DNA of 64,000 bases, taken from the NCBI RefSeq assembly GCF_004339765.1, contig NZ_SMGO01000001.1, positions 1 to 64,000 of the forward strand. Reading direction: 5' to 3'. The DNA comes from Albibacterium bauzanense. GTDB lineage: Bacteria > Bacteroidota > Bacteroidia > Sphingobacteriales > Sphingobacteriaceae. Both the position numbers and the translations under genes were made by a program. Of the stretch, positions 21,515 to 33,605 are shown piece after piece (positions within the stretch are counted from its first letter, which is position 1; the number at the start of each line of letters is the position of its first letter). Below the pieces are notes generated by a model. It did not search any database. It saw nothing but the letters and a program-made list of their open reading frames with translations, and was not told the DNA's origin.

Positions 21515-22453
21515 ATGAAAGGACTTAAATTAGTATTACTGGCGTCTGTTATTGTGCTTGGCTCTTGTGGTCGAAATGATAATGATTACGATGCTTCTGG
21601 TAATTTTGAAGCAGATGAGGTAATTGTATCTGCCGAGCAAAATGGGGAATTGCTTTCTTTTAATATAAAAGAAGGTGAGCAGTTGGATGCAGGGGCCAAA
21701 GTAGGGCAAATAGATATAATACTTGCTCAATTGCAAAAAGAACAGACCGAAGCTGCAATAACGGCTTTAAAAGAAAAAACAAGTGATGCTGGGGAGCAAA
21801 CAGCTTTGGTACAAAGGCAATTGGCTGTTGAAGAATCTCAATTAGATCATTTAATAAAAGAGCGTGAACGTACGCGCAATTTAGTAAAGGCTGATGCTGC
21901 TACACAAAAGCAATTGGATGATATGAATGCGCAGATTGATCAACAGCAGAAGCGTATTAATGTTACTAAGCAGCAAATTAGGTTAAATACATCGAATACA
22001 GCTACTCAAAATCGTTCTATCTTAAGTGAAAGAGGACCCTTGGAAAAAATGGTTGAACAATATCAGGAGCAGATTAAAAAAGGGGAAGTTATTAATCCGA
22101 TTAATGGGACTGTATTAGCCGCTTATGCTTTAAAAGGGGAGATGGCCATTATTGGTAAACCACTTTATAAGATTGCTAATACTGACACGCTTAATTTACG
22201 AGCTTATATTACAGGAGAGCAATTACCGCAGATAAAGATTGGTGATGAGATTGAAGTTAGGATTGATAGCGGTGCAACCGGTTTTAAATCTTATCCAGGT
22301 TCAATTACATGGATAGCCAGCAAATCGGAATTTACTCCTAAGACTATACAAACTAAAAATGAACGTGCAAATCAGGTTTATGCGATAAAAATCAGCGTTC
22401 CGAATGATGGTTATTTGAAAATTGGTATGTACGGAGAAGTACTTTTTAAGTAG
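21515..22453 (+). CDS. HlyD-family periplasmic adaptor lipoprotein
   Basis: 312 residues. The signal ends at a lipobox (VIVLGSC, Cys18). After it come the first biotinyl-lipoyl half (DEVIVSAEQNGELLSFNIKE), a long coiled-coil hairpin rich in Gln/Glu (about residues 75-190), the second lipoyl half (INPINGTVLAAYALKGEMAI) and a beta-barrel (GDEIEVRIDSGA). It would connect the ABC permeases in the inner membrane to the TolC partner, as YbhG does. Located 13 bases after tolC in the same operon. Confidence 0.9.
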   Translation: MKGLKLVLLASVIVLGSCGRNDNDYDASGNFEADEVIVSAEQNGELLSFNIKEGEQLDAGAKVGQIDIILAQLQKEQTEAAITALKEKTSDAGEQTALVQRQLAVEESQLDHLIKERERTRNLVKADAATQKQLDDMNAQIDQQQKRINVTKQQIRLNTSNTATQNRSILSERGPLEKMVEQYQEQIKKGEVINPINGTVLAAYALKGEMAIIGKPLYKIANTDTLNLRAYITGEQLPQIKIGDEIEVRIDSGATGFKSYPGSITWIASKSEFTPKTIQTKNERANQVYAIKISVPNDGYLKIGMYGEVLFK

Positions 22454-22458
22454 AAGAG

Positions 22459-23388
22459 ATGGATGCTGTATCGTTAAAAAATATTCATAAAACATACGAT
22501 AAGGGGAATGTTATTGCTGTTGATGATGTTTCATTCGACGTAAAGAAAGGTGAGTTATTCGGGTTAATTGGTCCGGACGGTGCTGGAAAGACTTCCATCT
22601 TTAGAATATTAACTACGGTATTGCTTGCAGATAAAGGTTCAGCTAGCGTAGCTGGTTTTGATGTGGTTAAAGAATATCGGGCTATTCGCAATAGGGTGGG
22701 TTATATGCCTGGGAAATTCAGCTTATATCAGGATTTGACTATAAAAGAGAATCTTGAATTCTTTGCTACGGTATTTGATACAAGTATCGAAGAGAATTAT
22801 GATTTGATTAAAAATATCTACGATCAGATCAGTCCTTTCAATGATCGTCGTGCAGGAAAGCTATCAGGTGGTATGAAACAGAAGTTAGCCTTGTGCTGCG
22901 CTTTAATTCATAAGCCTGAGGTGCTTCTACTGGATGAACCAACTACTGGTGTGGATGCTGTTTCGAGAAAAGAGTTTTGGGATATGTTGAAAGATTTAAA
23001 ACAGCAGGGAATAACAATTTTGGTATCCACTCCATATATGGATGAAGCAAACTTGTGCGAACGCATTGCATTGATTCAAAATGGTAAAATACTTTCAGTC
23101 GAGACTCCTGAGAATATCGTGAAGGCATTTCCTGTAACCTTATATGCTGCTAAGTCTGATAATAATTACAAACTCCTTACTGATTTTAGAAATTTTGATG
23201 CGGTTGCTAGTGCTTATGCTTCAGGCGAATATATGCGAATAATAGTAAAAGATGAGCATCCGGATAGCATCACTTTATTAAAAGACTATGCTGAAAAATT
23301 TGGAAATAGGAATGTGGAAATAAAAATAATAGCACCTACCATTGAAGATAACTTTATCTGGTTATCACAAAAGGAAGCTAATCATTAG
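22459..23388 (+). CDS. ABC transporter ATP-binding protein (YbhF N-half-like)
   Basis: 309 residues. Walker A GPDGAGKTS (about residues 38-46), signature LSGGMKQKLAL, Walker B LLLDEPTTGVD and the D-loop are all present. The unusual Asp in the P-loop (GPDGAGK) is also seen in the first half of E. coli YbhF. The extra 60 C-terminal residues resemble the DUF4162-type tail of drug-export ATPases. It starts 5 bases after the adaptor gene, with the second ATPase 2 bases later; the two together would equal the fused YbhF protein. Confidence 0.92.
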   Translation: MDAVSLKNIHKTYDKGNVIAVDDVSFDVKKGELFGLIGPDGAGKTSIFRILTTVLLADKGSASVAGFDVVKEYRAIRNRVGYMPGKFSLYQDLTIKENLEFFATVFDTSIEENYDLIKNIYDQISPFNDRRAGKLSGGMKQKLALCCALIHKPEVLLLDEPTTGVDAVSRKEFWDMLKDLKQQGITILVSTPYMDEANLCERIALIQNGKILSVETPENIVKAFPVTLYAAKSDNNYKLLTDFRNFDAVASAYASGEYMRIIVKDEHPDSITLLKDYAEKFGNRNVEIKIIAPTIEDNFIWLSQKEANH

Positions 23389-23390
23389 GT

Positions 23391-24134
23391 ATGGAAGAGA
23401 AGGTAATTATTTGCAATGATTTAACGAAGCAGTTTGGCGACTTCTATGCGGTCAATAAAATTAGTTTTGATGTGTATAAAGGTGAAGTGTTTGGTTTTTT
23501 GGGAGCAAATGGTGCTGGGAAAACGACTGCTATGAGAATTTTATGTGGTTTATCATACCCAACTTCCGGAAAAGCTAGCGTTGCAGGCTTTGATGTATAT
23601 AAACAGCAAGAATCTATTAAAAAGAATATTGGTTATATGAGCCAGAAATTTTCTCTCTATGAAAATTTAACTGTTTCAGAAAATATTGAATTCTTTGGTG
23701 GGATATATGGAGTAGAACGTTCAGAAATTAGCATGCGGCGTACAGATTTGATTGAAAGGCTTGGATTAGAGAAAGAGGTGAATAAGATGGTAGGAGAGCT
23801 TCCTCTTGGATGGAAACAAAAGCTGGCTTTCTCTGTCGCTATTTTTCATCAACCAAGAATTGTGTTTTTGGATGAACCTACCGGAGGAGTAGATCCGGTT
23901 ACGCGAAGACAGTTTTGGGATATGATTTATGAAGCGGCGGCAGGGGGTATTACAGTTTTTGTGACTACTCATTACATGGATGAAGCTGAATATTGCAATC
24001 GTATATCCATTATGGTAGATGGTAGAATTGAAGCACTTGATACACCTGAAAACTTGAAGAAGAACTATTCAGCCAGTTCAATGGATGAGGTTTTCTATCA
24101 GTTGGCCCGAGGAGCAAAAAGATCAGATAATTAA
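23391..24134 (+). CDS. ABC transporter ATP-binding protein with degenerate signature (YbhF C-half-like)
   Basis: 247 residues. Walker A GANGAGKTT and Walker B VFLDEPTGGVD are intact, but the signature LSGGQ is replaced by ELPLGWKQKLAF, as in the second half of YbhF-type proteins. This means one of the two composite ATP sites of the heterodimer has a non-canonical signature, so the pair probably hydrolyses ATP asymmetrically. It lies between the first ATPase and the first permease in the same operon. Confidence 0.92.
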   Translation: MEEKVIICNDLTKQFGDFYAVNKISFDVYKGEVFGFLGANGAGKTTAMRILCGLSYPTSGKASVAGFDVYKQQESIKKNIGYMSQKFSLYENLTVSENIEFFGGIYGVERSEISMRRTDLIERLGLEKEVNKMVGELPLGWKQKLAFSVAIFHQPRIVFLDEPTGGVDPVTRRQFWDMIYEAAAGGITVFVTTHYMDEAEYCNRISIMVDGRIEALDTPENLKKNYSASSMDEVFYQLARGAKRSDN

Positions 24135-24144
24135 CAATACAGAT

Positions 24145-25251
24145 ATGAAGCAGTTATTTGTATTTATTAGAAAGGAGTTTTATCATGTTTTTCGTGATAA
24201 ACGTACTTTGCTGATCATGTTTGGTTTGCCCATTGCTCAAATACTTCTGTTTGGTTATGCGATTACGAGCGAGGTGAAGAATTCTCACATTAGTATTTCT
24301 GATAATTCCCGAGATGCAAACACCGAGCAGCTGATTAATAAGATCAAATCTTCTTCCTATTTTATTGTAGATGAAACTTCTTTGAGTGAACAGGAAATAG
24401 AGAACACATTGAAGAGAGGGAATGTGAGATGTGTACTTGTTTTCCCACCTAATTTTGGGAATAATTTACTGCACTCTGGAAAGGCGCAAATACAAATTAT
24501 AGCAGATGGTTCAGATCCCAATACTGCTAAGACTCTAATAAATTATTTAACGGCTATTATAGCGGATTATCAACAGGAGATTTCACCTGCTGCAGTTTTA
24601 CCCTATGTTATTGTTCCGGAAACCAGGATGCTTTATAATGAGGAGGGAAATGGGTCTTTAAACTTCATTCCGGGAGTAATGGCCTTGATATTAATGATTG
24701 TATGTACTGCATTAACTGCAGTAGCTGTAGTAAAGGAAAAGGAACTTGGAACTATGGAAGTATTATTGGTTTCTCCCTTTAAACCCATTTTTGTTTTGAT
24801 TTCTAAAGCCGTGCCGTATTTGGTATTATCATTGGCAAACTTTACGCTTATCGTTCTATTGGCGGTTTTTGTGTTGAATGTGGAGATAAAAGGAAGTATT
24901 TTATTGTTATTTTTAGTAAGTACATTGTTCATTATAACCTGTCTTTCTTTTGGTTTATTAATTTCGAATGTTACTTCTTCTCAACAGACAGCTCTGCTTT
25001 TATCTATCATGGGTATGATGATACCTACACTTATTTTTACAGGTTTTATGTTTCCGATAGAGAATATGCCATGGGTATTTCAGGTTATTTCTAACATTGT
25101 TCCTTCAAGGTGGTATTTTCTGATCATTAAATCTGTGATGCTTAAAGGGCTTGGCTTCGCATATATATGGAAGGAAGTTTTGGTCTTGATTGTTATGACT
25201 CTTGCCTTGCTTGGAGTCGCTTTAAAAAACTTTAAAATCAGGCTGGAATGA
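24145..25251 (+). CDS. ABC-2 type permease (YbhS-like)
   Basis: 368 residues from the ATG at 24145, chosen because MKQLFVFIRKEFYHVFRDKR is the standard N-terminus and the start follows the ATPase stop by 10 bases; an earlier in-frame ATG at 24085 would overlap the ATPase by 50 bases. One N-terminal helix, an extracytoplasmic domain (about residues 45-175) and five C-terminal helices follow, with KEKELGTMEVLLVSPF as coupling segment. It would form a heterodimeric channel with the next gene. Confidence 0.9.
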   Translation: MKQLFVFIRKEFYHVFRDKRTLLIMFGLPIAQILLFGYAITSEVKNSHISISDNSRDANTEQLINKIKSSSYFIVDETSLSEQEIENTLKRGNVRCVLVFPPNFGNNLLHSGKAQIQIIADGSDPNTAKTLINYLTAIIADYQQEISPAAVLPYVIVPETRMLYNEEGNGSLNFIPGVMALILMIVCTALTAVAVVKEKELGTMEVLLVSPFKPIFVLISKAVPYLVLSLANFTLIVLLAVFVLNVEIKGSILLLFLVSTLFIITCLSFGLLISNVTSSQQTALLLSIMGMMIPTLIFTGFMFPIENMPWVFQVISNIVPSRWYFLIIKSVMLKGLGFAYIWKEVLVLIVMTLALLGVALKNFKIRLE

Positions 25252-26372
25252 AGATATTAAGGTTCCTTTTACAGAAAGAGTTCAGACAGATATTTCGTGA
25301 TAAGACTATTATTGCGATGATGTTTATGATGCCTACTGTACAGTTGATTATTCTTCCTTTGGCAATGGATTTGGAAGTGAAAAACATTAGTCTGTCTATT
25401 GTTGATCGGGATCATAGTAGTTATTCGCAACAGTTAATTAGTAAGGTAGGTTCTTCTGGATACTTCAAAATGGTGAGTATGGAACCTTCTTATAAGGAGG
25501 CGTTGAAATATGTTGAAAGGGATGAAGCGGATGTGGTGCTGGAAATACCTGCTGGCTTTGAACGAAATCTGATTCGGGAAGGGAAACAGAAAGTTGGTTT
25601 ATCAGTCGATGCAATTGATGGGACAAAAGCTTCTATTGGCGGCAGCTATTTAAATGCTATAATAGCAGACTTTACTGCTAACTTGGAAATTAATAATAAG
25701 GCTACAACTCCAACTAATTATACTTCAAAAAGTTTCATTGACGTAACCTATTCAACTTGGTTTAATCCCTTGGCTCAATTTAAATACTATTTGGTTCCGG
25801 GCATCCTTGTCTTATTATTAACGATGATTGGCGGTTTTCTGTCGTCTTTAAATATTGTGAGAGAGAAGGAAGTAGGGACCATAGAACAGATCAATGTGAG
25901 TCCGATTAAGAAATGGCAGTTTATCTTGGGCAAGCTTATTCCTTTTTGGATTATGGGGATTATTGTATTTACACTCGGACTTGTAGTTTGCTGGTTGATT
26001 TATGGTATTGTTTCAGAAGGTAGTCTTTTATTGCTCTACTTGTTTGCTGCTTTCTATTTAATAGCAGTTTTGGGTTTCGGTTTATTGATTTCAACTATTA
26101 GTGATAATCAGATTCAAGCTATGTTCCTGGCTTTTTTCTTTATGATGATCTTTACTTTGATGGGAGGTTTATTTACCTCGGTAGAAAGCATGCCTGATTG
26201 GGCAAGAAATATCTCTAATTTAATGCCAATAACACACTTTATTCGTGTAGTACGCATGGTTATGCTGAAGGGTAGTGGCTTTGCAGACGTTCAGCTTGAA
26301 TTCTTTTATATCATCGTTTTCGGTGTCATATTGAATGGCTGGGCTATCTGGAATTACAGAAAAACGGCCTGA
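25248..26372 (+). CDS. ABC-2 type permease (YbhR-like)
   Basis: 374 residues, same fold as the upstream permease: N-terminal helix (KEFRQIFRDKTIIAMMFMMP), extracytoplasmic domain, five C-terminal helices and the coupling segment REKEVGTIEQINVSPIKKWQ. Its ATG overlaps the stop of the preceding permease (ATGA), so translation is coupled. It is the last gene of the efflux operon. Family members export cationic drugs or dyes; the substrate here is unknown. Confidence 0.9.
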   Translation: MKILRFLLQKEFRQIFRDKTIIAMMFMMPTVQLIILPLAMDLEVKNISLSIVDRDHSSYSQQLISKVGSSGYFKMVSMEPSYKEALKYVERDEADVVLEIPAGFERNLIREGKQKVGLSVDAIDGTKASIGGSYLNAIIADFTANLEINNKATTPTNYTSKSFIDVTYSTWFNPLAQFKYYLVPGILVLLLTMIGGFLSSLNIVREKEVGTIEQINVSPIKKWQFILGKLIPFWIMGIIVFTLGLVVCWLIYGIVSEGSLLLLYLFAAFYLIAVLGFGLLISTISDNQIQAMFLAFFFMMIFTLMGGLFTSVESMPDWARNISNLMPITHFIRVVRMVMLKGSGFADVQLEFFYIIVFGVILNGWAIWNYRKTA

Positions 26373-26407
26373 TCATTTTTAATGTGTTTTTGGCTTAAAT
26401 AATAAAG

Positions 26408-26426
26408 GATAAAATACTCTTTTATC
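26408..26426. promoter_or_regulatory. GATAAAA/TTTTATC inverted repeat before the oxidase operon
   Basis: GATAAAA-TACTC-TTTTATC is a perfect 7-bp inverted repeat. It follows the ABC permease stop by 36 bases and sits about 38 bases before the inferred start of the oxidase transcript. It could be a weak terminator for the efflux operon or an operator/activator site for the oxidase operon; the sequence alone does not decide. Confidence 0.4.
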
Positions 26427-26440
26427 TTAATATTATTATT

Positions 26441-26448
26441 TAATTTTG
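26441..26448 (+). promoter_or_regulatory. -7 element TAATTTTG of the oxidase operon
   Basis: TAATTTTG matches TAnnTTTG, 21 bases before the CcoN start. No TTG is seen about 20 bases upstream, only T-rich sequence, which would suit a promoter that needs an activator. Confidence 0.4.
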
Positions 26449-26468: not shown

Positions 26469-28565
26469 ATGATTTCAAACACTTTTCAATTGGCAATATC
26501 AAGCCTATGGATTAATGGTTTTATTGTCGTGCTATCTGTGATAATTATTATCGTATTATTATTTGCAATATCTGTTCTATTAAATATGCGAGAAATCAGG
26601 GGAGATACAGATAAGATGGGATTTAAGAGTGATGAAGAAAGGTTTAAGCATTATATAGACACCTTAAATAGCAAACAAATAGAAGAGTTTCGTAAAGTAA
26701 GAAAGAAAGAGACTTCTTTTGCCCCGACTTCTAAAAAAGATGTTGTTAGTGGCCTTACAATCGCGATTTTATGTTTGATTAGTCATTTTAGCTATGGACA
26801 AAATGAAGGTGTTGATTCCGAAACTGTAATGTCTAGTGGGGGTGTTATTATTACTTTAATTTTAATTGCTATACCCATTATAGTCGGTATTCTATTACTA
26901 GCTGGTCGGGTTAAGAAGTACATTAATAATATCAGTGATAGAAATAAACACATTGAGGCAAGGAAATTGGCAGATTATATTAAGTCTTTGCCTGAGGATG
27001 AAATAGAAGAAACTATTGAGCGGAGACAAGCTGCTGTAAATTATCAGCTGTCTCAAAAGGAGTTATCAGGCGATCAACCAGTGGCAGATACAAAAGGTTT
27101 GATAGCTGAGAATCCGGATACTTCTCTTCCGTTTGTTGCAGTTAAAAAGAAAGCTACAAAAAGACCTTCTGTAGATCCTAAACTTGCTAAATTGGTATTA
27201 TGGTTTGCAGCTACAGCTACCTTTTGGTTGATCTTTGGTACATCGGTTGGAGAGTATGTTGGGATTAAGTTTGTAGCTCCTGATATTGATCAAACCAGTT
27301 GGCTGAGTTTTGGAAGGTTAAGACCTGTTCATACTAATTCTGTTTTTTGGGGTTGGGCCTCTCTGGGGATGTTAGGTTTGGGTTATTATTCTGTACCCCG
27401 AGTAGGAAACAATGTGCTTTTTAGCTATAAACTCGGTTGGATTACTCTGGTTTTAATTAATGCGACGGTGCTGTTCGGTACGATTGCTCTTATGGCCGGT
27501 ATTAATAATGGCGGTGGTGAATTTCGTGAATATATCTGGCCTGTTATGCTGCCGTTTGCAGCTGCATTGATCCTTACGCTTTATAATTTCTTGAAGACTA
27601 TTGCTACACGTAAAACCAAAGAAATATATATATCTAATTGGTATATGGTTGCAGCATTGATCTTCGCTATTGTGATTACTCTGGTTGCTTATTTGCCATT
27701 TTGGCAAACTGGTTTAGGAGAAACGATAGTGCAGGGTTATTATATGCATCAAGGTGTGGGCATGTGGTTTATGATGTTTACACTGGGTATTGTGTATTAT
27801 TATCTTCCTCAACAATTGAACCAGCCAATCTATTCATACAGCCTGGGTATTTTGGCTTACTGGACTCAAATACTGTTTTATACTTTAATCGGATCGCATC
27901 ACTTTGTATTTAGTTCTATTCCATGGTGGTTGCAAACAGTAGCTATTGTAGGAAGTGTGGGAATGGTTATTCCGGTTGTAGCGGGTACTACCAACTTTGT
28001 AATGACCTTTAAAGGTGCATGGCATAAAATTACTGATAGCTATACTTTGCCTTTCTTTATCGTTGGAATTGTATTCTATTTTACAGGATCGATGCAGGGT
28101 ACGGCAGAAGCTTTTAGAGAAACCAATTTGTATTGGCACTTTACTGATTTTACGGTAGCTCATTCACACTTAACCATGTATGGTATTATAACCTTCTTTA
28201 TTTGGGCTGGTATGTATGTTATTATTCCTCGCTTAACAGGCAAGGAGCCTCCTCAAATAACAGTTGGTGCTCATTTCTGGATGGCTCTTATTGGTTTAAT
28301 GTTTTACTCTGTGCCTTTAATGATTGGAGGAACCTTACGTGGTTTGTCATGGATGGAAGGAAAACCGTTTCTTGATAGTGTGATTATGATGGCGCCACAT
28401 TGGTTGTGGCGTGCAATAGGAGGGAGTTTAATGTGGCTTTCTCATCTGGTTTTTGCTTATAATCTTTATAAAATGTGGGATTCTAAGCCTGCACTGGATG
28501 TGAAGGATCTGGCAATACAAAAATTAGATAAAGACCTTAATCAACAAACCGAAAAAGCTTTTTAA
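26469..28565 (+). CDS. ccoN: cbb3-type cytochrome c oxidase subunit I (CcoN) with long N-terminal extension
   Basis: 698 residues. The core (about 240-690) is the heme-copper oxidase subunit of the C family: heme ligand His288 (RPVHTNSVFWGW), CuB ligand His427 (MHQGVGMWF), the pair His477-His478 with the cross-linking Tyr471 six residues earlier (YTLIGSHH), and the heme ligands His565 and His567 (VAHSHLTMYG). The intact Tyr argues for O2 reduction rather than NO reduction. The first 235 residues are extra: a membrane helix (about 15-38), a charged loop, a signal-like helix ending HFSYGQ (about 97-115), a third helix (about 123-146) and a charged linker. The next gene (CcoO) starts 1 base after its stop. 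Confidence 0.9.
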   Translation: MISNTFQLAISSLWINGFIVVLSVIIIIVLLFAISVLLNMREIRGDTDKMGFKSDEERFKHYIDTLNSKQIEEFRKVRKKETSFAPTSKKDVVSGLTIAILCLISHFSYGQNEGVDSETVMSSGGVIITLILIAIPIIVGILLLAGRVKKYINNISDRNKHIEARKLADYIKSLPEDEIEETIERRQAAVNYQLSQKELSGDQPVADTKGLIAENPDTSLPFVAVKKKATKRPSVDPKLAKLVLWFAATATFWLIFGTSVGEYVGIKFVAPDIDQTSWLSFGRLRPVHTNSVFWGWASLGMLGLGYYSVPRVGNNVLFSYKLGWITLVLINATVLFGTIALMAGINNGGGEFREYIWPVMLPFAAALILTLYNFLKTIATRKTKEIYISNWYMVAALIFAIVITLVAYLPFWQTGLGETIVQGYYMHQGVGMWFMMFTLGIVYYYLPQQLNQPIYSYSLGILAYWTQILFYTLIGSHHFVFSSIPWWLQTVAIVGSVGMVIPVVAGTTNFVMTFKGAWHKITDSYTLPFFIVGIVFYFTGSMQGTAEAFRETNLYWHFTDFTVAHSHLTMYGIITFFIWAGMYVIIPRLTGKEPPQITVGAHFWMALIGLMFYSVPLMIGGTLRGLSWMEGKPFLDSVIMMAPHWLWRAIGGSLMWLSHLVFAYNLYKMWDSKPALDVKDLAIQKLDKDLNQQTEKAF

Positions 28566-28566
28566 A

Positions 28567-29586
28567 ATGGAATTCTTTAATAATCATAAAAGTCTCTTTA
28601 TTGCAACGGCTGCATTGTTTTTGATTCTGACATTCTTCGTGGCTATTATGCCTGCCTTGAATAATCAGAAAGACAATGCCCCATTGCCCAATGCAGTACC
28701 TTTAAGTGCGGCTGCACAAAAAGGAAAAGCACTTTATATAGCGAATGGCTGCGTGGCCTGCCATACTCAGCAAGTTAGAAATATTGATATGGATAAAATG
28801 TTTGGTTCAAGACCAAGTGTTTCAGCGGATTATGCAGATATAAAAAGACAAGATATCTGGCGTAATACGGCTACATTGATGGGAACTGAACGTACTGGTC
28901 CGGATTTAATTAATGTAGGAAATCGTCAGCCTAGCCAGGATTGGAACTTAGTTCATCTTTACAATCCAAGAACGGTGGTTAGTGAATCCATTATGCCTGC
29001 TTATCCATGGTTGTTTATCTTAAAAGAATATCCTACGATGGATGATGTAGTTGTTGCTGTGCCCGAAGAGTTTTTAAAAGATAAAAGTAAAAAGGTGGTT
29101 GCAACAGAGGATGCACTTAATTTGGTAGCTTATTTACAATCATTGAAGCAAACAGAAATGCCAACTGGTACAAATTTTCCGGAGTTTTTGTATAAACGAA
29201 ATGTTAAAAGTGCCGCGGTTGCCAGTAGTGGAGGAGAAGGGCCTTCTAAAGTTATAGCTGCCGATGGTGTTGCCTTATATGCTACAAATTGCCAGGCTTG
29301 TCACCAGCAAAATGGAAAAGGATTGCCTGGTGCATTTCCTTCACTTGCAGGAAGTAAGGTTGTGTTGGATGAGAATCCTGAGATATTTGTAGACATTATT
29401 ATGAACGGTTATAATGCCCGTGCTAATGAAGGGTTTGGCCCCATGCCTGCAGTTGGAACTATGGCTAATTTAACTGCTGATGAGATTACTGCTATTATGA
29501 ATCATGAGAAAACAAGTTGGGGAAATGATGCAAAAACAGTAACTGTAGAAGAGATTCAAAAATTAATTGATAAGGTTAAGAAATAG
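28567..29586 (+). CDS. ccoO: CcoO-like cytochrome c fused to a C-terminal cytochrome c domain
   Basis: 339 residues. An N-terminal membrane anchor (about residues 9-30) leads to a first heme c site CVACH (Cys62, Cys65, His66) in a CcoO-type domain (GTERTGPDLINVGNR, SIMPAYPWLF with Met143). A second cytochrome c domain follows with CQACH (Cys242, Cys245, His246) and GPMPAVGTM as likely Met ligand. Canonical CcoO has one heme; the second domain probably stands in for the missing CcoP. In many Bacteroidota CcoN and CcoO are fused, but here they are separate and the fusion is O-to-P. It acts in the membrane, delivering electrons to CcoN. Confidence 0.88.
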   Translation: MEFFNNHKSLFIATAALFLILTFFVAIMPALNNQKDNAPLPNAVPLSAAAQKGKALYIANGCVACHTQQVRNIDMDKMFGSRPSVSADYADIKRQDIWRNTATLMGTERTGPDLINVGNRQPSQDWNLVHLYNPRTVVSESIMPAYPWLFILKEYPTMDDVVVAVPEEFLKDKSKKVVATEDALNLVAYLQSLKQTEMPTGTNFPEFLYKRNVKSAAVASSGGEGPSKVIAADGVALYATNCQACHQQNGKGLPGAFPSLAGSKVVLDENPEIFVDIIMNGYNARANEGFGPMPAVGTMANLTADEITAIMNHEKTSWGNDAKTVTVEEIQKLIDKVKK

Positions 29587-29601
29587 ATATAAAATAAAGA
29601 C

Positions 29602-29862
29602 ATGAAAAGGATAGTAATCTTATTACCACTTTTACTCGCTGCCCTAGGTGGCTTTGCTTGTCCGGCTTGTGAAAAACAACAACCTGCACTTCTAAAAGGT
29701 ATTTCTCATGGAAGCGGACCTGATAGTAATTGGGACATGGTGATTGTTTGGATTATAGCGATCATAGTAGTTTTGACTTTGTTTTTTTCTATAAAGTTTT
29801 TAGTAAAACCAGGAGAAAAATCAAAGTCACATATTAAACGGTTTATATTAAGTAACGATTAA
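29602..29862 (+). CDS. Small oxidase-associated membrane protein with CPAC motif
   Basis: 86 residues: signal peptide, then ACPACEKQQP just after the probable cleavage site, a short loop (GISHGSGPDSNWD), one membrane helix (VIVWIIAIIVVLTLFFSIKF, about 48-68) and a basic tail. The CxxC would face the periplasm. I know of similar small proteins next to oxidase genes in Bacteroidota but no function for them; assembly, copper or thiol handling would be guesses. It begins 15 bases after the cytochrome gene and 6 bases before the next gene. Confidence 0.7.
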   Translation: MKRIVILLPLLLAALGGFACPACEKQQPALLKGISHGSGPDSNWDMVIVWIIAIIVVLTLFFSIKFLVKPGEKSKSHIKRFILSND

Positions 29863-29868
29863 ATACTG

Positions 29869-30279
29869 ATGAAAACTAAAAGCAGCATTTTGCTTTTCAT
29901 TGACGATGAATCAACTCCAATAGCGTCTTTTCAGGCACCAGTAAAATTTGAGTTGGATACTACCAAGCTAGTCGATGGAAAACACACATTAAGAATAGTA
30001 AGTAAGGATCCGAATGGTAAAGAAGGCATTCGGATTGTTCCATTTGAGGTTCGTAACGGTCCGGCTATAAGCATTGAAGGTTTACGTAAAGATGCAATTG
30101 TTGATGGGGTTATCCCTCTTATGATTAATGCTTATGGAAAAGGTAATTCAAGTCAATTTTACATAGAGGGAAGTGAAACACCACAAAGCATTCCTTACTG
30201 GGTTTGGATATTATTAATTGGCTTTGTGGGTTGGGCGCTTTATTATCTATTTACCTATATTAATGTAGTTCCTAATTAA
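29869..30279 (+). CDS. Ig-like domain protein with C-terminal membrane anchor
   Basis: 136 residues. The N-terminal part looks like a beta-sandwich (VKFELDTTKLVDGKHTLRIV, then VPFEVRNGPAISIEGL), with a C-terminal membrane helix (IPYWVWILLIGFVGWALYYL). No signal peptide is visible, so with N-out topology it would depend on the C-terminal helix; alternatively the beta domain is cytoplasmic. It is not a cytochrome (no CxxCH). Position inside the oxidase operon suggests an accessory or structural subunit. Confidence 0.6.
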   Translation: MKTKSSILLFIDDESTPIASFQAPVKFELDTTKLVDGKHTLRIVSKDPNGKEGIRIVPFEVRNGPAISIEGLRKDAIVDGVIPLMINAYGKGNSSQFYIEGSETPQSIPYWVWILLIGFVGWALYYLFTYINVVPN

Positions 30280-30293
30280 TGAAATAAAAGACC

Positions 30294-31124
30294 ATGGATA
30301 TATCAGAAAATACCCGCATATCCGATTTATTAAAAGAGAATAAGGTTAGCATTGATGCAATTGCCTCATTGGCTAAACCTCTTGAGAAACTTAAGAATCC
30401 TATTTTAAGAAAGCTGATGGCTTCTCGTGTAACTATAGCTGAAGCTGCAAAAATGGGAGGTTGCTCTCTTCAGGATTTTGAAAGGGTATTAACACCATTG
30501 GGTTTTAAGTTTATAAAGAATGTGGAGAAAGAAGATTTTGTGGAAGAGGAGTCACCTAATTGGCTGAAGAATCTTCCTGCAGATCATATCGAGGTATTTG
30601 ATGTGAGAGAGATTTTGTTAGGCGGACAAGATCCTTTAAAACAAATTATGCAACGTTTTAAAAGTGTTCCGACTGGAAACGCACTTTGCATTGTAAATAG
30701 TTTTATACCTGTTCCTTTGGTACGTTTGCTTGAAAAAGATGGTGTAAAAAGCTTTACAAAAACAATAAGAATCAATGAATTTCATACGTATTTTTATAAA
30801 GTTCCTACTGTTAAAGAGACAGTAGCTCCTGCGCCTGGAACCAATGATAACATCCACATGCTTGACCAAGCTTCCTTTCAAGAGGAATATAATAAGTTTT
30901 CTGAAGCTAATATTCGTGAAATTGATGTACGTGCTCTGGAAATGCCAGGCCCTATGCAAACCATTCTGCAAATACTACCTACATTAAGTACTAATGAAGC
31001 TTTGTATGTAAATCATAAACGAGTTCCATTATATTTACTTGAAGAAATAGCAGGTGAAAATTATTATGTAAATATTCTTACTTTATCTGAAATAGATGTT
31101 AAATTATTGATTTATAAAAGATGA
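30294..31124 (+). CDS. DUF1858 plus two DUF2249 domains, cytoplasmic
   Basis: 276 residues. Residues about 1-72 are a DUF1858-like helical domain (TRISDLLKENKVSIDAIASL, AAKMGGCSLQDFERVL). Then come two DUF2249 domains of the TusA-like fold, starting IEVFDVREILLGGQDPL (about 97) and IREIDVRALEMPGPMQTIL (about 205). DUF2249 domains recur near heme-copper oxidases, denitrification genes and hemerythrins, but their reaction is unknown. It is the fifth gene of the oxidase operon (15 bases after the Ig-like gene), so a role in redox or cofactor handling for the oxidase is a fair inference. Confidence 0.78.
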   Translation: MDISENTRISDLLKENKVSIDAIASLAKPLEKLKNPILRKLMASRVTIAEAAKMGGCSLQDFERVLTPLGFKFIKNVEKEDFVEEESPNWLKNLPADHIEVFDVREILLGGQDPLKQIMQRFKSVPTGNALCIVNSFIPVPLVRLLEKDGVKSFTKTIRINEFHTYFYKVPTVKETVAPAPGTNDNIHMLDQASFQEEYNKFSEANIREIDVRALEMPGPMQTILQILPTLSTNEALYVNHKRVPLYLLEEIAGENYYVNILTLSEIDVKLLIYKR

Positions 31125-31130
31125 TAGGGG

Positions 31131-31649
31131 ATGGAAAAGTTTACGATATGGACGGTCGGTCATTCAACTCGTAGTTTTTCAGAGTTTCTGGAATTGCTGC
31201 AACATAATTCGATTAAATTACTGGTGGATGTAAGGAGCCTCCCGGGTTCACGGAAGTTTCCTCAATTTAATAAAGAGAATTTAGAGACAGAACTACCTGC
31301 TAATGGTATTGAATATCAGCATATGCTCGCTCTTGGTGGAAGAAGAAAGGTTCATAAAGATTCTAAAAATACGGCCTGGCGAAATCCTTCTTTCCAAGGA
31401 TATGCTGATTATATGGAAACGGAAGAGTTTAGAACAGCACTGAATGAACTGGAAAATAGCAGCAAAAATCAAAATACTTGTATTATGTGTTCAGAGGCAG
31501 TTTGGTGGCGCTGTCATCGGAGTATGATTGCAGATGCACTTAAGTTAGATGGATGGAAAGTGCTGCATATCTTATCGTTAACTAAATTAGAGAAACATCC
31601 TTATACATCTCCGGCATCTATTAAAAATGGTAAGCTTTTTTATAATTAG
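31131..31649 (+). CDS. DUF488 family protein
   Basis: 172 residues with the family signatures WTVGHSTRSFSEFLELL, LVDVRSLPGSRKFPQFN, LGGRRKVHKDSKNTAWRNPS and CIMCSEAVWWRCHRSMIADA. The two cysteines in CIMCSE and the later CHR make it a candidate for a thiol- or metal-linked function, but the family is uncharacterised. It starts 6 bases after the DUF1858/DUF2249 gene, so it is probably the last gene of the oxidase operon. Confidence 0.82.
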   Translation: MEKFTIWTVGHSTRSFSEFLELLQHNSIKLLVDVRSLPGSRKFPQFNKENLETELPANGIEYQHMLALGGRRKVHKDSKNTAWRNPSFQGYADYMETEEFRTALNELENSSKNQNTCIMCSEAVWWRCHRSMIADALKLDGWKVLHILSLTKLEKHPYTSPASIKNGKLFYN

Positions 31650-31739: not shown

Positions 31740-33605
31740 ATGCGAAAAAGTAAAGGTACAAGGGAGCCCATCCCGATAGCTCCTTCTCTAGGCTTTAATG
31801 ATCAAGAGTTTATTGATACACCACCTTCAGTTTCTAAACGGGTTCTTTATTTAAGTGCACAGGCAGTTTTTAATGCTATAATTATTGGCTTCATTGCGAA
31901 GCTGCTTGTTGAGTTGATTCATCTTATTACTAATCTTTTCTTTTATGGAAATTTTTCATTTGAAGAAACTACTCCGGCCGGTAATACATTGGGATTATGG
32001 GTTATTGTAATCCCGGTTATAGGTGGACTTATTGTGGGTGTTATGGCTAAATTGGGTTCTACAGCTATTCGTGGTCATGGAATTCCAGAGGCCATGGAGC
32101 AGGTATTAACCAATGAAAGTAAAATTAAACCTATTATTACCATTTTAAAACCACTATCTGCAGCAATCTCTATTGGTTCGGGTGGTCCATTTGGTTCTGA
32201 AGGCCCTATCATTTCAACCGGTGGAGCTTTGGGTTCTTTTGCCGGACAAATTATGAAAATTACGCCGAATGAGCGTAAAATTATGCTTACGGCTGGTGCT
32301 ACTGCAGGTATGGCAGCTATTTTTGGAACGCCAGTGGCGGCTGTTTTGTTGGCTGTTGAGTTGTTGCTTTTTGAATTTTCACCACGTTCTATTATTCCGG
32401 TTGCATTGGCTTGTGCTACAGGTGCTGCGATGCATTTGTTAATGTTTGGACAAGAGCCGATGTTTGGAATGCCCGACATTCCTGCACCAACCTACCAGGC
32501 TTTAATGTGGTATGTAACATTAGGGGGGATTATTGGTGTACTGGCAGCCCTTATTTCTAAAAGTATTTATTTAATAGAAGATTGGTTTGAGAAACTTCCT
32601 ATACATTGGATGTGGTGGCCAGCTATTGGTGCCATTGCAATTGGTGTAGTAGGTTATTTCGCTCCTTATACTATGGGAGTAGGATATTCTAATATCTCTG
32701 ATTTATTAACAGGAAATTTGCCTGTACAAATGATATTTGGATTGGGAGTATTGAAGTTTATTTCCTGGTCTATTTCTTTAGGTAGTGGTACTTCTGGCGG
32801 TACTTTGGCTCCTTTATTTACTATAGGTGGAGCGATAGGATTGGCTTTAGGAATGGTTATTCAATATATTTTTCCAGAGAGCGATATTAATTTACCTACC
32901 TGTGCTTTAATTGGTATGGCAAGTATGTTTGCCGGTTCAGCACGTGCATTACTAACATCAATTGTTTTTGCTTTTGAAGTTACGATGCAACCTCATGGTT
33001 TACTTCCTTTACTAGGAGCTTGTACTTCAGCTTATTTTGTGTCTTTTTTCTTAATGAAAGGAACAATTATGACAGAGAAGATTCAACGTAGAGGAATATT
33101 AACTCCTGATGCTTACGAGCCTGATGTTTTACAGCAAATGCATGTTGGAGAAGTAATGGAGTATTTGGAACCACAAATATCATTGAATCAGAGTATTGCT
33201 GATGTTAAAAAATGGGTATCTTTAAATCGTCCTGATCGTCATGTATTGATTGTAAAGGATAATGAGGGGAAGCTGGCTGGTACCTTAAAATTAAAGGATT
33301 TGCGAGAAAATGAATTGGATGAAAATGTGAGTATTGAAGCCTTGATGGATAAGAAGATCATTTATATTTATCCGGAGAGTCAATTAAGCTTTGCTGTCGA
33401 AATGATGGATCGTTATCATACTGATTTAATTCCTGTAGTAAATCGTGATAATAAAACACAGTCTATTGGTTTGTTAACTCCAACATTAGTGTTTGCAGCT
33501 TACCGTAAAGCTCGTTATGCCGATCAACAACTTCAACGGCCAATTAGTTTGAAAAGGAGTGGTTATAGAATGCTCGTAAAAAGTAAAAAGGGATTTAAAA
33601 GGTAA
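31740..33605 (+). CDS. CLC family chloride channel/antiporter with C-terminal CBS pair
   Basis: 621 residues. The membrane part (about residues 30-450) has the CLC motifs GSGGPFGSEGP (with the gating Glu of the GxEGP loop) and GTSGGTLAPLFTIGG. The C-terminus carries two CBS domains (about 462-525, VGEVMEYLEPQI, and 535-590, IEALMDKKIIYIYPESQ) that commonly bind adenine nucleotides and regulate gating. It probably moves Cl- across the inner membrane. It is followed 6 bases later by an MFS gene, so the two share a transcript. Confidence 0.9.
   Translation: MRKSKGTREPIPIAPSLGFNDQEFIDTPPSVSKRVLYLSAQAVFNAIIIGFIAKLLVELIHLITNLFFYGNFSFEETTPAGNTLGLWVIVIPVIGGLIVGVMAKLGSTAIRGHGIPEAMEQVLTNESKIKPIITILKPLSAAISIGSGGPFGSEGPIISTGGALGSFAGQIMKITPNERKIMLTAGATAGMAAIFGTPVAAVLLAVELLLFEFSPRSIIPVALACATGAAMHLLMFGQEPMFGMPDIPAPTYQALMWYVTLGGIIGVLAALISKSIYLIEDWFEKLPIHWMWWPAIGAIAIGVVGYFAPYTMGVGYSNISDLLTGNLPVQMIFGLGVLKFISWSISLGSGTSGGTLAPLFTIGGAIGLALGMVIQYIFPESDINLPTCALIGMASMFAGSARALLTSIVFAFEVTMQPHGLLPLLGACTSAYFVSFFLMKGTIMTEKIQRRGILTPDAYEPDVLQQMHVGEVMEYLEPQISLNQSIADVKKWVSLNRPDRHVLIVKDNEGKLAGTLKLKDLRENELDENVSIEALMDKKIIYIYPESQLSFAVEMMDRYHTDLIPVVNRDNKTQSIGLLTPTLVFAAYRKARYADQQLQRPISLKRSGYRMLVKSKKGFKR

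Follow-up and report, generated by a model that had tools for sequence, protein, structure and literature searches.

The 64,000-nt window analysed here (the whole stretch taken from contig NZ_SMGO01000001.1 of Albibacterium bauzanense) contains at positions 26469-31649 of the + strand six open reading frames (ORFs), beginning with ccoN and ccoO, which are separated from ccoN to the DUF488 gene by gaps of 1, 15, 6, 14 and 6 bases and were all recovered where a first-pass annotation had placed them. The operon encodes a C-family (cbb3-like) heme-copper reductase whose clade is separate from that of the canonical cbb3 oxidases. The features of the locus are listed below (TM, transmembrane); residue numbers such as Tyr251 and Glu323 follow P. 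stutzeri CcoN.

26402..26425, no strand: 24-bp palindromic operator ATAAAGGA-TAAAATAC-TCTTTTAT, 43 bp before the ccoN start codon, a position weight matrix (PWM) match
26441..26448, + strand: TAATTTTG, read directly from the letters, which we take to fit the Bacteroidota promoter -7 box TAnnTTTG
26469-28565, + strand: ccoN, ORF of 698 aa
26469..26735, + strand: module A of the CcoN extension (TM helix and amphipathic linker, residues 1-89), homologous to module B
26745..27182, + strand: module B of the extension (embedded signal peptide at residues 93-111, TM helix, linker to residue 238), delimited by alignment and by relatives whose CcoN starts here
27189..28427, + strand: catalytic core of CcoN (Pfam COX1 1.5e-78, residues 241-653 only)
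28567-29586, + strand: ccoO, ORF of 339 aa
28579..29016, + strand: N-terminal mono-heme FixO domain of CcoO with TM helix (Pfam FixO 4.9e-28)
29257..29505, + strand: second cytochrome c domain, fused to the CcoO C-terminus (Pfam Cytochrom_C 1.1e-16)
29602-29862, + strand: p86, 86 aa, small membrane subunit with signal peptide, CPAC, TM helix and tail PGExxxxHIKR; conserved operon position
29869-30279, + strand: p136, 136 aa, Ig-like domain, C-terminal TM helix and invariant Glu103 (GSETP); resembles a headless CcoP
30294-31124, + strand: DrpB-like DUF1858-DUF2249-DUF2249 protein, 276 aa (Pfam)
31131-31649, + strand: DUF488 protein, 172 aa (Pfam); no constant part of the system

Neither p86 nor p136 matched a Pfam family at E 0.001, and ranking by hidden Markov model (HMM) gave no clear match of p86 to CcoQ, CcoS or CcoH. 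Canonical cco genes are indeed absent near the operon, as first annotated, yet the same contig carries a full canonical set (CcoI-CcoS-CcoNO-CcoQ-CcoP-CcoG-CcoH) at a distance of 1.03 Mb; an A-family oxidase is additionally encoded in this genome.

Placement and distribution of the variant oxidase

The variant CcoN of the window shares 31% identity with the canonical CcoN of its own genome and mostly 50-74% with its clade relatives, which come from Bacteroidota and a few Verrucomicrobiota and Deinococcota. It scores 243 bits against the NCBIfam ccoN equivalog model, below the cut-off of 583, and its best solved-structure match is 3mk7_A (E 2.7e-62). A tree of subunit I resolves three groups, namely the variant CcoNs (31 rows; support 86/89), the canonical CcoNs (100/100) and the nitric oxide (NO) reductases (NORs; 100/99), the last including one very long branch (cNOR_L173) and one qNOR-like sequence near a contig end (row cNOR_L174). 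This separate clade bears out the earlier proposal of a distinct oxidase type. The clade also extends beyond Bacteroidota: a scan of public genomes returned 52 loci, mostly from Bacteroidota and also from Opitutaceae, Pelagicoccus and one Deinococcales record. Its distribution is patchy. The variant CcoN occurs at 56-100% identity in 25 of 151 genomes of the family (own genome counted), and strong matches to a p136 profile are present in 13/395 genomes of the host phylum, 6/111 of the phylum of the Deinococcales locus and 3/240 of that of the Opitutaceae locus.

The block ccoN-ccoO-p86-p136 is not a chance arrangement because it recurs in about 70 other loci, and these four genes, including the ccoO-cytochrome c fusion, are the conserved unit. 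A DUF1858/DUF2249 gene was found at 16/71 loci and a DUF488 gene at 5/71. The first-pass annotation had all four accessory genes supplying subunits or assembly and redox steps of the oxidase; p86 and p136 do behave as subunits, whereas the other two are not oxidase-specific and not constantly present. Five genomes carry the variant and no canonical CcoN, CcoS, CcoG or FixP_N CcoP, one of them (G007) being a single-contig genome, and these variant-only genomes rule out a dependence on CcoS or CcoG for assembly.

Literature searches found no publication that describes this operon, its regulon or the exchange of subunits. In a tree of PMC5492636, an 'unknown group' of PF00115 ascribed to Muntyan et al. 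2015 stands apart from the authentic cbb3 clade with its mandatory active-centre Glu. The variant clade has no Glu323 and may be this group.

Architecture of the encoded subunits

Across an alignment of 82 variant and 25 canonical CcoNs, the heme and CuB His ligands of the C-family fold (H207, H257, H258, H345 and H347) and the residues E122 and E125 are kept in all 82 variants. The same is true of Tyr237, Tyr317 and Tyr251 (window Tyr471, the position of the helix-VII cross-link Tyr), confirming the initial description of a CcoN with all C-family His ligands and Tyr471. Position 211, where NorB has its active-site Glu211, is Gly (window Gly431), not Glu; qNORs of the same family have Glu211 and Gly251, the opposite of the variant's Gly and Tyr. 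An AlphaFold2 model of CcoN has a mean pLDDT of 69.5, with low confidence near the active site.

Canonical CcoNs of the 151 family genomes, at ~30-36% identity, align essentially only from residue 241 onward; the N-terminal extension is missing from ordinary CcoN, as had been claimed. It is a tandem duplication of a signal peptide-TM-linker module. The alignment of modules A and B spans 92 columns, linker included (hhalign probability 98.65, E 4.5e-16, a value from a single comparison and inflated by generic signal peptide-TM similarity), and helices are modelled in the module B region at residues 124-173 and 176-190. Conservation of the extension is partial: among 74 relatives, classed by length, two modules are present in 52, one in 21 and none in one, and the CcoNs of L131, L134 and L137 have no module. 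In five loci (L059, L020, L022, L023 and L024) module A has a gene of its own that overlaps the start of ccoN (hmmsearch E 3e-23 to 4e-6), such as the unfused genes of 110-111 aa at L020:1263-1595 and L022:3290-3625. Because module A stands alone in these loci, the extension most likely arose when an upstream gene for a small membrane protein was fused to ccoN, the embedded signal peptide marking the former ccoN start, although the reverse, a later splitting of module A from ccoN, is conceivable. At the embedded signal peptide, an AxAQ motif resembling a signal-peptidase site is often present. Homology of the extension to the N-terminal signal peptide-TM region of Bacteroidota CcoP was considered (hhalign 88-93%) and rejected, as the unrelated p86 scores equally, pointing to generic similarity. 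One canonical CcoP (L120:7339-8490) contains two signal peptide-TM modules with one embedded signal peptide, a layout like that of the CcoN extension.

The added second CxxCH domain of CcoO, reported at first annotation, is substantiated by the FixO and Cytochrom_C matches. Two CxxCH motifs are present in the CcoO of 72/73 relatives; CcoO of L143 and L084 has a single one. The bifunctional CcoO-cytochrome c family PRK14486 / NF011054 has the same architecture, CcoO with a C-terminal cytochrome c. The window protein scores 102 bits against it, below the family cut-off of 447, the alignment of the basal relative L131 covers almost the full length at 147 bits, and the model is silent on partner subunits.

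p136 combines an Ig-like domain with a C-terminal TM helix and has no heme motif. We read it as a CcoP-like anchor without its cytochrome. Its TM region aligns gap-free with the FixP_N region of CcoP (ETPQSIPYWVW vs ELDNPIPMWFN); 20 diverse sequences all have Glu103, Pro105, Pro109 and Trp111, and Glu103 aligns with Glu49 of P. stutzeri CcoP, as counted in the phmmer alignment. Lee, Gennis and Adelroth 2011 and Ahn et al. 2014 reportedly place the proton-channel entrance at that CcoP glutamate. When 5918 ORFs were ranked with an HMM built on the TM region of canonical CcoP, 28 true CcoPs came on top, followed mostly by p136s, and Pfam FixP_N matches, sub-threshold though ranked first in several genomes, land on p136 in five. 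In L131, L134, L137 and the Deinococcota loci L084, L142, L144 and L145 the p136-type chain runs on into a cytochrome c; this domain, following the TM helix, also sets the topology as N-in/C-out. The first-pass annotation's statement that CcoP is missing holds for a FixP_N/cytochrome c CcoP in the operon, but not for the CcoP-like anchor, which p136 appears to provide without heme and to which relatives keep a cytochrome c attached. Fold prediction modelled only the beta-sandwich part of p136 well, and neither the best Foldseek match (CopC, E 0.05) nor the best VIA match (Z 6.3) is decisive.

Operator and denitrification context

The operator has a PWM score of 29.7 and is the sole match scoring at least 9 in the 64 kb. 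Its consensus ATAAARGAN8TCYTTTAT matches the window once with 0 mismatches, against 0 expected (100 shuffles). Rrf2-ccoN operons of relatives are preceded by ATAAAAGA-N8-TCTTTTAT, exactly in 13 cases and with at least 13/16 matches in 26/36; shuffled sequences gave at most 3 for any half-site pair. No Rrf2 gene adjoins the window operon, its operator copy notwithstanding. Genes downstream of 67 operator matches (score at least 18, fetched loci) encode Rrf2 (42), variant ccoN (10), RIC (7), nirK (2), and one each of qNOR, a DrpB-like protein and a cytochrome c, with three lacking an assigned gene; these loci are a biased sample, some from one genome, and the target counts indicate specificity, not independent events. 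Because the palindrome also precedes Rrf2-ccoN, RIC, nirK, qNOR and DrpB-like genes, it places the variant oxidase in an NO/denitrification regulon. Both the operator and the NO context had been missed by the first-pass annotation and are added here.

Genes of the kind associated with NO stress are also much more frequent neighbours of the variant than of canonical cbb3. At 64 variant loci the neighbours include Rrf2 (44), truncated globin (36), RIC (26) and hemerythrin (17), compared with 0, 2, 1 and 0, respectively, at 25 canonical cbb3 loci, the families being identified as Rrf2, Bac_globin, RIC (TIGR03652 above cut-off) and hemerythrin. The Rrf2 proteins have the motif C-x6-C-x5-C in 48/51 cases, as expected for an Fe-S sensor.

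DrpB of Thermus thermophilus, of the same DUF1858-DUF2249-DUF2249 architecture, belongs to a nitrate-respiration setting and is a proposed part of a nitrate sensor (PMC6282519). The DrpB-like protein of the window adjoins the oxidase, which is not so in most relatives, and fits a denitrification setting wider than the oxidase itself. A multi-TM protein of 418-430 aa (L004:1495-2751 in the own genome, C2, about 478.5 kb; L138:11577-12866; L177:7054-8322) is regularly flanked in NO islands by DrpB/RIC on one side and DUF59 genes on the other; it has weak partial COX1/ccoN similarity and looks NnrS-like by eye.

Co-occurrence with denitrification genes was assessed in the 151 genomes of the one family, with p-values that ignore kinship. 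nirK is present in 7/25 variant-positive vs 9/126 variant-negative genomes (p=0.006) and nosZ in 15/25 vs 34/126 (p=0.002). Among the 16 NirK+ genomes a qNOR-type match was found in 9/9 without the variant vs 2/7 with it (one-sided Fisher p=0.0048), the two being G054 and G126. All five NirK+ genomes without a conventional NOR (G000, G017, G032, G117 and G134) carry the variant. The host genome itself encodes NirK and NosZ and has no NorB-type COX1 match (non-heme-copper NO reductases were not searched for). Its nosZ, nirK and complete set of canonical cbb3 genes share a 30-kb stretch (C1:1036000-1066000; L175, L087), 1 Mb from the variant oxidase. Beside this nirK is a gene for a 408 aa membrane protein with the motif HSHSHFALSGW (L175:12129-13355, about C1:1048128-1049354), which has homologues in L177 and L179 and belongs to no Pfam or NCBIfam family.

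Proposed function and alternatives

The variant shares with the cbb3 CcoNOQP complex, an enzyme of low-oxygen respiration, the CcoN fold, the heme and CuB ligands, the cross-link Tyr position and the FixO domain of CcoO. It differs in forming a separate clade, in its substitutions in CcoN, in having no diheme CcoP, with a cytochrome c on CcoO and p86 and p136 added, in the modules fused to CcoN and in its NO regulon. We suggest, at a probability of roughly 0.55, that it is an O2 reductase working under NO, that is at low O2 in denitrifying conditions, and that it probably also reduces NO. The retained tyrosine argues for O2 reduction, and a bifunctional enzyme is plausible because nitrogen oxide reduction is reported as a side activity of canonical cbb3 enzymes (PMC8780969). 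We predict that a periplasmic cytochrome c donor would deliver electrons to the extra cytochrome c domain of CcoO, from where they would pass through the N-terminal CcoO heme to heme b and then heme b3-CuB of CcoN. p136 would replace the membrane anchor of CcoP, its TM helix placing a CcoP-type glutamate at the proton-channel entrance and its Ig-like domain lying at the cytoplasmic inner face; its ancestral cytochrome c domain would have been lost and its job taken over by CcoO. p86 may be an extra small membrane subunit, and the N-terminal modules accessory helices fused to CcoN. The palindrome would serve to control expression, most likely through an Fe-S Rrf2 repressor that NO releases. If this is correct, cbb3 enzymes are modular on the side where electrons enter: cytochrome c can belong to the CcoP-like chain, to CcoO or to both, and the anchor with its glutamate stays.

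Several observations weigh against this proposal. Glu323 is Gln in 82/82 variants vs Glu in 25/25 canonical sequences, and two proton-channel residues are also lost, Ser240 to Gly in all 82 and His243 to Ala in 81 and Gly in one. Because the three are substituted across the clade, canonical proton pumping cannot be assumed for the variant. Leu247 is Gln in 82/82 and, because positions 237, 240, 243, 247 and 251 share one face of helix VII, judging from their spacing, a polar residue seems to have shifted one turn up. The regulon and the complementarity with qNOR fit an NO reductase at least as well. The main rival, possible but less likely, is a dedicated NO reductase with its origin in the C family, which would retain the cross-link Tyr, receive electrons via the cytochrome c domain on CcoO rather than via CcoP, and reduce NO to N2O, filling the gap between NirK and NosZ in Bacteroidota without qNOR or cNOR. 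The loss of the two proton-channel residues would agree with this, as would the qNOR-type matches of the NirK+ genomes, the host genome's NirK and NosZ without a NorB-type match, and an operator and kind of genomic island common to variant, nirK and qNOR. The variant and qNOR/cNOR, all of the heme-copper superfamily, likewise have operator and genomic slot in common, but the NORs here possess Glu211 and no Tyr251, the variant shows the opposite, with all three tyrosines kept in 82/82, and it falls outside the NOR group of the tree. Two genomes hold both enzymes, and the 16 compared belong to one family, uncorrected for kinship and searched for heme-copper NORs. N2O release is puzzling to predict for genomes that have NirK and NosZ but in which no NO reductase is recognised. 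The variant, which has its operator in common with nirK and qNOR and occurs in all five sampled NirK+ genomes without a recognised NO reductase, is a concrete candidate. That it is an ordinary cbb3 oxidase, served by canonical assembly genes in trans and with mere decoration on CcoN, we consider very improbable: the same genome does encode a complete canonical cco set, and core fold and ligands are the same, but the variant-only genomes, the consistent clade-wide substitutions and the separate regulon contradict it.

Under either substrate, the origin of p136 may be another than CcoP. The link to CcoP is weak alone (hhalign probability 18; FixP_N 14 bits vs a cut-off of 24.9 for L076), and the clear homology of the Ig domain is instead to the FbcC-type cytochrome encoded in Thermus-like bc1 operons, FbcC being the name that we take to apply to their Ig-TM-cytochrome c protein. 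With odds somewhat short of even, p136 is an FbcC-type subunit taken from a bc1-type complex, its FixP_N likeness reflecting convergence at the membrane surface. In Thermus-like genomes the p136 profile matches, at E about 1e-20, Ig-TM-cytochrome c proteins encoded next to a Rieske gene, which supports such an origin, but the Glu/Pro/Trp motif, invariant in the oxidase-linked proteins, is not found in all FbcC-like ones (L149 has none). FbcC carries its Ig-like domain, TM helix and cytochrome c on one chain and adjoins a Rieske gene, whereas p136 adjoins an oxidase and in the window has no cytochrome. FbcC-like proteins homologous to p136 via the Ig domain occur in about 60 Deinococcota genomes (L146-L154), beside multi-TM and Rieske proteins.

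Directly upstream of the operon, window positions 21515-26372 encode an RbbA-like export set (an HlyD-like protein, two ABC ATPases and two ABC-2 permeases) in the slot that Rrf2 occupies in relatives. After the operon, at 31740-33605, is a CLC chloride channel gene with CBS domains; CLC genes lie near the variant also in L048, L057, L064 and L050.

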